Positions 9,868 to 28,623 of a DNA stretch of 40,305 bases are shown piece by piece (positions within the stretch are counted from its first letter, which is position 1; each line of letters starts with the position of its first letter). The position numbers and the translations under genes are program-made. The DNA comes from Deinococci bacterium (GTDB lineage Bacteria; Deinococcota; Deinococci; Deinococcales; Trueperaceae): assembly GCA_030149325.1 (NCBI GenBank), contig JASBRS010000063.1:1-40305 (forward strand). The letters are read 5' to 3'. The notes beneath the pieces were generated by a model. That model made no database searches. It was not told the DNA's origin and saw only the letters and a program-made list of their open reading frames with translations.

Positions 9868-11918
<2,051 letters not shown>

Positions 11919-11919
<1 letters not shown>

Positions 11920-26571: not shown

Positions 26572-27423
26572 TCAGCGCCGCGCCAGCAGCGCCGCCACCA
26601 GGAACAGCGCGGCCTGCGTCAACACGATGGTGGAGCCGCTGGGGACGTCGACGAGGTACGACAGCGCCAGCCCCGCGACGGTGCTGACCACGGCGAGCAC
26701 CACGCTGAGCACGCTCATCTGCGTCAGGGTGCGCGCCAGCAGACGGGCGCTGGCGGCCGGGATGACCAGGTAGGCGGCCATCAGGATGATCCCCACCACC
26801 ACCGAACTGACGGCGATGACCAGCGCCGCGCAGGCGAACAGCAGGTACTCCAGCCGGCGCGTGGCCACGCCGTCGGCCCGCGCCAGCTCGTCGTCGAAGG
26901 TGGCGTAGCTCAGCCTCCCCCAGGTCGCGGTCAGGAACGCCACCGCCACCACCGCCACCACCGCGATCACCACCAGGTCCGAGCCGGTGACGCCGAGGAT
27001 CGAGCCGAACAGCAGGTCCATCAGCGACAGCCCCAGGTTGACGTCGGGCGGGATGATCGAGAAGAACAGCACCCCCAGCGCCACCGACACCGCGAAGAAC
27101 ACCCCGATGGCGGTGTCGCTGCTGAGGCGCGTGTTGGCGCGGACCCAGGCGATCGCCAGCGCTGCCAGCAGGCTGAACGGCACCGCGATCCACAGCGGGT
27201 GCCGCAGCAGGCCGATGCCGCTGCCCAGGAGCCCGGTGGCGACGATGACGAAGGCGCCCAGCCCCATGCCCCCGAACGCGGCATGGGCGAGACCGGCGCC
27301 GAGGAACGACAGCCGTCGCTGCACCACGAACACTCCGAGGAGCCCGCTCATGACGGCCACCAGCAGCCCGGCGGCGAGCGCCCGCTGCATGAAGCCGAGG
27401 TGCATGGCCTCGATCAGTCCCAT
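26572..27423 (-). CDS. Metal ABC transporter permease (ZnuB/MntB type, ABC-3 family)
   Basis: The 283-aa protein has eight or nine hydrophobic segments and the ABC-3 family motifs FVVQRRLSFLGAGLAHAAFG near the N-terminus and LLFGSILGV in the middle. It forms the channel for Zn2+, Mn2+ or Fe2+ import across the inner membrane with the ATPase encoded 9 nt upstream. An SD (GAGGGA) precedes the ATG at 27423. The substrate-binding lipoprotein normally belonging to the set is missing from this cluster. The metal cannot be told from the permease alone. Confidence 0.92.
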   Translation of the reverse strand: MGLIEAMHLGFMQRALAAGLLVAVMSGLLGVFVVQRRLSFLGAGLAHAAFGGMGLGAFVIVATGLLGSGIGLLRHPLWIAVPFSLLAALAIAWVRANTRLSSDTAIGVFFAVSVALGVLFFSIIPPDVNLGLSLMDLLFGSILGVTGSDLVVIAVVAVVAVAFLTATWGRLSYATFDDELARADGVATRRLEYLLFACAALVIAVSSVVVGIILMAAYLVIPAASARLLARTLTQMSVLSVVLAVVSTVAGLALSYLVDVPSGSTIVLTQAALFLVAALLARR

Positions 27424-27432
27424 GCAGGTCCC

Positions 27433-28182
27433 TCAGAAGGCCAGGGCATGGTGGTGACCGTGGTGCCCGAAGGCACGCTCCAGGCAGGGCTCGCACAGCA
27501 CTTCGTCGGGCGGACCGAAGCCGTGCACGCGGCGGTTGAGGACCAGCACGCGATCGGCGTGGTAGCGCGCGGCGGCGAGATCGTGGGTGACCATCGCCAC
27601 GCTGGCGCCGGTGTCGCGCTGGTACCCCTCCAACAGGTCGTAGAGGTCGTGCTCGGCGAGGAAGTCGACGCCGGTCGCGGGCTCGTCGAGCAGCACCAGG
27701 CTGGGCCTGCGCACCAGCGCCCGGGCCAGGTAGACGCGCTGGAGCTCCCCGCCCGACAGGCGGGCGAGCTGCCGCAGCTCGAGGTGCTCCGCACCCACCC
27801 GGGCCAGCGCCGCCCGCGCCTGCTCGCGTTCGGCGACGCCGATGCGCGTCGGCCAACTACGGCGCAGCCCGCTGACCACCAGCTCGAGCGCCGTGGCGGG
27901 GAAGCTGCGATCGAAGGTCTTGAGCTGGGGGACGTAGCCGACCCGCTCGGGCGAGGCGCCGGCGACCGTTCCGAACAGCGCGGCGTGCCCCCGCTGCGGC
28001 GTGATCAGCCCCAGCGCCACCTTCACCAGCGTCGACTTGCCGGCGCCGTTGGGCCCGACCACGGCAAGGAAGCATCCGGGCTCGATCTCGAAGCTGACGT
28101 CCTCGAGGATGATCGCCTCGCCGAGCCGCACCAGCACGCGATGCAGGTGCAGCGGCGGGGCCCCGGGCGCGCCCTCGCTCAC
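27433..28182 (-). CDS. Metal ABC transporter ATP-binding protein (ZnuC/MntA type)
   Basis: The 249-aa ATPase has Walker A GPNGAGKST (43-51), the signature LSGGELQRVYLARAL, Walker B LVLLDEPATGVD and the H-loop MVTHD. The C-terminus is unusual: LCEPCLERAFGHHGHHHALAF combines a CxxC pair with six His-rich positions, a likely soft metal-binding tail. It suggests zinc (or manganese) as substrate or signal. The start is GTG at 28182, without an SD but inside a GTGA overlap with a 25-codon leaderless upstream ORF, so its translation is probably coupled. It is the first gene of the transporter operon, with a Fur-like operator upstream. Confidence 0.93.
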   Translation of the reverse strand: MSEGAPGAPPLHLHRVLVRLGEAIILEDVSFEIEPGCFLAVVGPNGAGKSTLVKVALGLITPQRGHAALFGTVAGASPERVGYVPQLKTFDRSFPATALELVVSGLRRSWPTRIGVAEREQARAALARVGAEHLELRQLARLSGGELQRVYLARALVRRPSLVLLDEPATGVDFLAEHDLYDLLEGYQRDTGASVAMVTHDLAAARYHADRVLVLNRRVHGFGPPDEVLCEPCLERAFGHHGHHHALAF

Positions 28183-28256
28183 GCCGCGGCCGTTTGTCCG
28201 GGAAGGCGGGTGACGCCGGCCTGCGCCCGCCGGGAGCCTTGAGAACGCGTTCTCAT
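28179..28256 (-). CDS. Leaderless 25-codon upstream ORF of the metal ABC operon
   Basis: ATG at 28256, 6 nt after TAGAGT, starts a 25-codon frame (MRTRSQGSRRAQAGVTRLPG...TAAA) whose TGA overlaps the GTG start of the ATPase as GTGA. The ATPase start has no SD, so a ribosome that loads on this leaderless frame and terminates is well placed to restart there. The first six codons also contain a 16-bp palindrome resembling a Fur-family operator. The peptide is Arg-rich with no recognised family. It is probably a ribosome-loading cistron rather than a functional peptide (inference). Confidence 0.5.
   Translation of the reverse strand: MRTRSQGSRRAQAGVTRLPGQTAAA
28240..28255. promoter_or_regulatory. 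16-bp palindrome TGAGAACGCGTTCTCA, Fur/Zur-like operator
   Basis: The perfect palindrome TGAGAACGCGTTCTCA resembles Fur-superfamily boxes (TGA-A-A half-sites facing each other) such as actinobacterial Zur sites. It starts one base downstream of the predicted transcription start of the metal ABC operon, where binding would block initiation. Repression by a Zn- or Mn-loaded Fur-family protein is the likely role. No regulator gene is in the window. Confidence 0.6.
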
Positions 28257-28262
28257 TAGAGC

Positions 28263-28268
28263 ACTCTA
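28263..28268 (-). promoter_or_regulatory. -10 box TAGAGT of the metal ABC operon
   Basis: TAGAGT on the minus strand ends 6 nt before the ATG of the 25-codon upstream ORF, placing the transcription start at about 28256, against the palindrome. Confidence 0.6.
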
Positions 28269-28325
28269 CCCGCCGCCCGCCGCGCTGCCAAGAGCGTCGA
28301 CGACACCCGCGCGCCCCGCGACGAA

Positions 28326-28357
28326 GCGGCGGCCCCGGGAACTCCCGAGGCCGCCGC
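28326..28357 (-). terminator. rpmB terminator hairpin
   Basis: GCGGCGGCC (28326-28334) pairs with GGCCGCCGC (28349-28357). After one mismatch CGGG pairs with CCCG around an AACT loop. It begins 20 nt after the rpmB stop on the minus strand. There is only a weak T-stretch (TTCGTC), as usual for very GC-rich terminators. Confidence 0.6.
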
Positions 28358-28377: not shown

Positions 28378-28623
28378 TCAGAGCTTGTTGGGGTTCACCA
28401 ACAGGGTGGGATCGAGCTGGCGCAGCGCCTTGGCGCTGATCCACACCTTCTGGGGCTTGCCGTCGACCCACAGCGTCTTCTTCTGCAGGTTCGGCTTCAC
28501 TTGACGCTTGTGCACACCGACCTGCTTGAGGCCGACCCCGCCCCGCTTCTTGGGCGAGCCCTTGCGCTTGCTGGTGGTGGTGCTACGCGTTCTCTTGCCT
28601 GTGACTGCGCATACACGCGGCAT
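28378..28623 (-). CDS. rpmB: 50S ribosomal protein L28
   Basis: The 81-aa basic protein begins MPRVCAVTGKRTRS and continues with KQVGVHKRQVKPNLQKKTLWV and VWISAKALRQL, the L28 pattern. L28 is a small protein of the large ribosomal subunit. The zinc-binding CxxC pairs seen in some L28 proteins are absent (only Cys5), so this is the zinc-free form. The ATG at 28623 is preceded by GGAGG at a normal distance; the longer frame is not conserved. The leader contains a GCTCGC/GCGAGC hairpin (28659-28676). Confidence 0.95.
   Translation of the reverse strand: MPRVCAVTGKRTRSTTTSKRKGSPKKRGGVGLKQVGVHKRQVKPNLQKKTLWVDGKPQKVWISAKALRQLDPTLLVNPNKL

Follow-up and report, generated by a model that had tools for sequence, protein, structure and literature searches.

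The locus described here raised the question of how a metal-uptake operon is started when its first gene has no Shine–Dalgarno (SD) sequence and is preceded by a 25-codon reading frame that opens on a perfect palindrome. We propose that this element serves as the regulated start of a znuCB operon and that it most likely represents what is left of a collapsed znuA gene.

Promoter, mini-frame and palindrome upstream of znuC

In the window, which is the whole stretch of 40,305 nucleotides that was analysed, a znuC/mntA-type ABC ATPase of 249 amino acids is encoded on the minus strand (27433..28182). The next gene of the operon encodes an ABC-3 family permease of the znuB type with 283 amino acids (26572..27423, minus strand), and the pair corresponds to a transporter of the znuABC type. 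On the other side lies rpmB for ribosomal protein L28 (28378..28623, minus strand), which ancestrally precedes znuA or znuC. The interval between rpmB and znuC contained a single match to the promoter consensus, consisting of a -35 box TTGGCA (28286..28291, minus strand) and, after 17 bp, a -10 box TAGAGT (28263..28268, minus strand), and shuffling gave 0.0 ± 0.1 such matches. Six nucleotides after the -10 box, an ATG at 28256-28254 opens the 25-codon mini-frame MRTRSQGSRRAQAGVTRLPGQTAAA (28179..28256, minus strand), a predicted ribosome-loading mini-cistron and putative znuA remnant. Its stop codon TGA (28181-28179) overlaps the GTG start of the ATPase gene (28182-28180), and the junction reads GTGA (28179..28182, minus strand). 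No purine-rich SD was found before this GTG, which is the sole canonical start in the ATPase open frame 5' of the conserved part. The first-pass annotation had read the promoter spacing, the frame, the overlap and the SD-less start in the same way, and its coordinates were right. The perfect 16-bp palindrome that it placed from +2 of the predicted transcript was confirmed as TGAGAACGCGTTCTCA (28240..28255); it starts at base 2 of the ATG, covers bases 2-17 of the mini-frame, within codons 1-6, and is a putative operator for a Fur-family (Zur-like) repressor.

A leaderless-type promoter had also been proposed, which agrees with the -10-adjacent TAGAGT and with the genome as a whole. In a sample of 1.45 Mb (48% of the genome), for which a codon-usage gene caller gave 1333 genes, TANNNT was located 5–7 nt before 171 of the called starts, compared to approximately 4 at each of the other distances. 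The same peak before gene starts was detected in a second genome, G013. Based on the promoter spacing and this genome-wide pattern, the mini-frame transcript would have its 5' end at the ATG.

Between rpmB and the promoter we observed an inverted repeat with 15-nt arms that are 93% complementary (28326..28357). It is a possible end of the rpmB transcript, although it has no T run, and a terminator scan of the rpmB-znuC interval found no terminator. Elsewhere in the window, ten bases inside rpmB (ACGCGTTCTC, 28585-28594) match one half of the box exactly, probably by chance, and a protein of 683 amino acids combines a protein kinase domain with NHL repeats (9868-11919, minus strand).

The local picture by itself proves little, since palindromes are common and a frame of this kind arises easily. 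The 1.45 Mb sample contained 178 perfect 16-bp palindromes, or about 5 per 40 kb of this 72% GC DNA, and the chance that a frame started by the operator reaches the GTGA junction is about 0.24 (24 codons open, 0.72, multiplied by 1/3 for the frame). This value favours the main rival to our reading, in which the box and promoter drive znuC, the 25-codon frame is incidental and znuC starts by itself at its SD-less GTG. An incidental frame is expected from the composition of the site, since RTG results when an operator with TGA as its first bases directly follows a start-site purine, and the frame then stays open at 72% GC. We consider this explanation less likely than the remnant. The recurrence of the arrangement had been put forward as an argument against chance; this argument is weaker than stated for the TGA overlap, which is built into any NTGA start, and it is the box that recurs, at znu genes.

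The palindrome as the first codons of znuA

With up to two mismatches allowed, the palindrome was found at only two sites in the whole 3.04-Mb assembly, and both are at znu genes. The second site forms codons 1-6 of a gene for a znuA/troA-like substrate-binding protein (MRTRSRYGG...), the start of which resembles a signal peptide by eye. This gene is located behind TTGACA-17-TAGATT and is divergent from a Fur-family regulator gene on contig C94. A search with the box pattern in 39 genomes of the family gave 19 sites, and 12 of these belong to a znuA or znuC gene; a scan of public genomes for the exact palindrome gave 19 scattered matches. A box could be recognised in 21 znuA genes of the family. 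In 18 of them it forms codons 1-6 in frame, and a TANNNT box was present 6-9 nt 5' of the start in 17 of these 18. A palindromic site at the promoters of uptake genes thus recurs in the relatives. As there are only two sites in the genome, both at znu genes, and the position in znuA is the same across the family, the recurrence of the palindrome at znu genes is not due to chance.

The codons themselves point in the same direction. The znuA start encoded by the box reads MRTxSx, and in this genome AGA accounts for 0.5% of the Arg codons and TCT for 0.7% of the Ser codons. Since both are very rare, codons 2 and 5 look as if they are held by the DNA site and not by the needs of the protein. The claim that one 16-bp element is both operator and coding sequence was therefore upheld on a wider basis than the single locus. 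That a single element serves as putative repressor site and as coding sequence throughout the family is the strongest result of our analysis; it provides a natural case in which a repressor site and a translation start share the same 16 bases, family-wide and despite very rare codons. Operators inside leaderless starts were looked for in the available literature, and none was found there. The first-pass annotation had missed that an operator in codons 1-6 is typical of znuA in this family, and that the mini-frame stands at a site from which znuA was lost. For the reading in which the frame is incidental, the rare codons are unfavourable, as they show that the start and the box are normally translated in znuA. 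In its favour, the box is located in a short leader, 5' of the start and outside the coding frame, in three family znuA genes (G003, G016 and G021), with 2-3 mismatches.

The cognate regulator is probably encoded next to znuA. The protein encoded divergently from znuA on C94 scored above the Pfam FUR cut-off, no NCBIfam model, including any Zur model, reached its cut-off, and solved Fur-family proteins, Zur-like ones included, matched it alike. From this linkage and the conservation of the box, repression by a Fur-family protein with Zn or Mn appears probable. The NCBIfam models for Zn and Mn transport systems scored alike on the transporter, all below cut-off. In the alignment with the solved zinc-binding relative 2ov1, a His of the latter falls on the third metal-ligand position of the binding protein; we take this His to be a ligand, which would favour zinc as the substrate. 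The Fur-family gene on C94 has its own ATG 6 nt after TACCAT, and an imperfect palindrome CGAGAGCGTACTCTCG 5' of it (L010:1575-1590) may be a second, autoregulatory box.

Loss of znuA and a probable origin of the mini-frame

The usual order in the relatives is rpmB-znuA-znuCB, with an RTGA overlap between znuA and znuC. We found rpmB-znuA-znuC in 12 family genomes and rpmB directly before znuC in 8, including the present one (G000). A tree of znuC alone left this genome unplaced, and the tree of znuC and znuB together resolved the placement: the 8 genomes without znuA at the site formed one clade (support 99/98), the sister clade of which keeps znuA there. A single loss or move of znuA is thus sufficient. 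All 8 sister-clade genomes in which the junction could be measured have an RTGA overlap between the znuA stop and the znuC start, often extended to RTGAGC, as is the case here.

Most of the 8 genomes have a znuA gene elsewhere. These relocated genes, represented by six rows, also formed one clade (94/98), apart from those of G019 and G029, which are of a second type. The moved gene adjoins a Fur-family gene in this genome and in G033. The second type (L178/L177) groups with the in-place znuA of other genera, and the Fur-family gene in its vicinity is not the one above but a more distant member. In the complete, single-contig genome G007, znuC is present, and neither a znuA match at E < 1e-25 nor a box at znuC was found. 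No box was seen at znuC in the g8 genomes, or in the closest relative by znuC identity (G033), which speaks against our reading; the comparison includes one genome of this genus. G004 has retained the box-start at this site, where it reads in frame into znuC and extends the N-terminus of the ATPase.

The mini-frame has the promoter, box and start of a znuA gene at its left end and the ancestral RTGA junction with znuC at its right end, and it is therefore best read as a znuA remnant. Beyond the box, it shows a weak similarity to the genome's own znuA, the significance of which varied with the control (p 0.004 with codon shuffling, 0.016 with base shuffling and 0.07 compared to other gene starts). 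As this similarity is at most suggestive, the descent of the frame is deduced from its position and its two ends, and not from the intervening sequence. An origin by loss of znuA is supported by the gene order and the tree, and physical descent of the frame from znuA appears probable on the same grounds.

According to the remnant model, znuA in this family has a -10 box right before its start codon, so that the mRNA 5' end would be at or a few bases from that codon, and the putative box of a Fur-family (Zur-like) repressor at about +2 to +17 of the transcript, where it encodes codons 1-6. In the ancestor of the clade with this genome, znuA would have left the rpmB-znuA-znuCB site, with a working copy elsewhere, and the znuA-type promoter, box and start would have been retained with the RTGA znuC junction and joined as a 25-codon frame. 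In the presence of metal the repressor would occupy the box and block transcription. In its absence, a leaderless mRNA would be made, and the ribosome would initiate at the ATG of the mini-frame, read 25 codons, terminate at the TGA and restart at the overlapping SD-less GTG of znuC. Translation of the mini-frame is a prediction from sequence; restart at the GTGA is suggested by the overlap, the absent SD and the enrichment of coupled mini-frames described below.

The same ends could have been acquired by a different route, if znuC took a copy of the promoter and operator of the relocated znuA. The box is indeed one mismatch from the genome's own znuA box, and the next ten bases match (GCTCCCGGCG). 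However, the boxed znuA of the sister clade occupies exactly this position between rpmB and znuC, the RTGA junction is ancestral, a box is also present at the G004 site and retention takes fewer steps, which makes such a capture improbable. A functional leader peptide or attenuator, in which the peptide or a 5' hairpin would sense metal or control translation, was tried and rejected as very improbable. The box can form a 6-bp hairpin from mRNA base 2 (-5.9 kcal/mol for the 30-nt start), but this fold was no more stable than those of shuffled sequences (z 0.41) and was absent from the sister znuA mRNAs of G037 and G030. The peptide contains no Cys or His, and nothing in it is conserved past the box.

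This lack of conservation past the box also agrees with an incidental frame, whereas the missing SD of znuC and the in-frame start in G004 do not. Returning to the remnant model, it suggests a possible origin of leaderless mini-cistrons, in which an operon loses a gene and retains the promoter, operator and start of that gene together with the coupled junction. More tentatively, selection in this family might have favoured ribosome-loading mini-frames as a general means of positioning repressor boxes at about +1 to +17 of leaderless transcripts while leaving the main protein unconstrained. The box would then be a portable cassette, seen as codons 1-6 of znuA, as the znuC fusion of G004 and as the standalone mini-cistron here.

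Coupled mini-frames in the genome and in known systems

The first-pass annotation had suggested that the leaderless mini-cistron is a general device of this lineage, and the enrichment check was positive. We counted intergenic frames of 10-40 codons that start 5-7 nt after TANNNT and end on a gene start. The 1.45 Mb sample contained 18 such coupled mini-frames compared to 4.3 expected from the other spacings (Poisson p 8e-7), and 0.8 Mb of G013 contained 10 compared to 2.1 (p 6.5e-5). Coupled leaderless small ORFs are thus overrepresented in both genomes. Part of the excess could be explained by promoters simply being near genes, which is addressed by the share of mini-frames that overlap the next start (50% at the 5-7 nt spacing compared to 24%, Fisher p 0.002). 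A smaller first sample of 0.82 Mb gave a Fisher p of 0.056, and more of the genome was added after that result; the p values given here for this genome thus come after an enlargement of the sample, and the independent replication is provided by G013. The approximately fourfold enrichment at the leaderless spacing in two genomes also argues against an incidental frame upstream of znuC. In several of the candidates a purine run resembling an SD precedes the main start, which means that coupling is not needed by all of them. One of the 18 candidates precedes a proC-like gene (C85). A proC mini-frame shared by this genome and G013 was considered and dropped, the G013 gene having no match to the G000 protein.

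The arrangement had been said to repeat at bshA (38758-37595). The frame there is real: it has 19 codons (38814-38757, minus strand), opens as TAGACT-5-GTG and ends with a GTGA overlap onto bshA. No such box is present at bshA, so that this locus supports the mini-cistron idea and not the operator idea. The bshA arrangement recurs with unrelated peptides in G012 (21 codons), G001 (13) and G017 (9), and in G003, G008 and G009 the bshA start itself is at, or a few bases from, the -10 spacing.

The general device is real but of an already known kind. In mycobacteria, coupled leaderless RTGA small ORFs have been described and are overrepresented (Shell et al. 2015, PMC4633059). Like the frames reported here, they have a leaderless RTG and a TGA overlapping the next RTG, occur above expectation and are conserved as an arrangement and not as a peptide. 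In our case the start is deduced from promoter spacing and not mapped, the first codons consist of the putative repressor box, the frame is apparently a gene remnant, and the phylum is a different one. In Deinococcus-Thermus, genes with a -10 box right before the start codon have been described as leaderless and as a common expression pattern, which agrees with our findings (Zhong et al. 2025, PMC12340547); in the text searched, neither small cistrons upstream of genes nor operators are mentioned.

Leaderless, Zur-controlled zinc-uptake genes are known from the Zur regulon of Corynebacterium glutamicum (PMC2823685), and our locus would likewise combine zinc-uptake genes, leaderless transcripts and a Fur-family repressor. 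The C. glutamicum motif is a 21-bp 10-1-10 repeat over the core promoter (PMC2823685), whereas the repeat described here is 16 bp long, has an even centre, is located past the -10 box and inside codons 1-6, and does not have the one-base centre that defines the actinobacterial 10-1-10 motif (PMC2823685). Similarly to znuABC/mntABC operons, the present system combines an ATPase with an ABC-3 permease and a substrate-binding protein, and a gene of the Fur family is found in the vicinity. In contrast to these operons, the gene for the binding protein is located on another contig beside the regulator, and the mini-frame stands in its old place.
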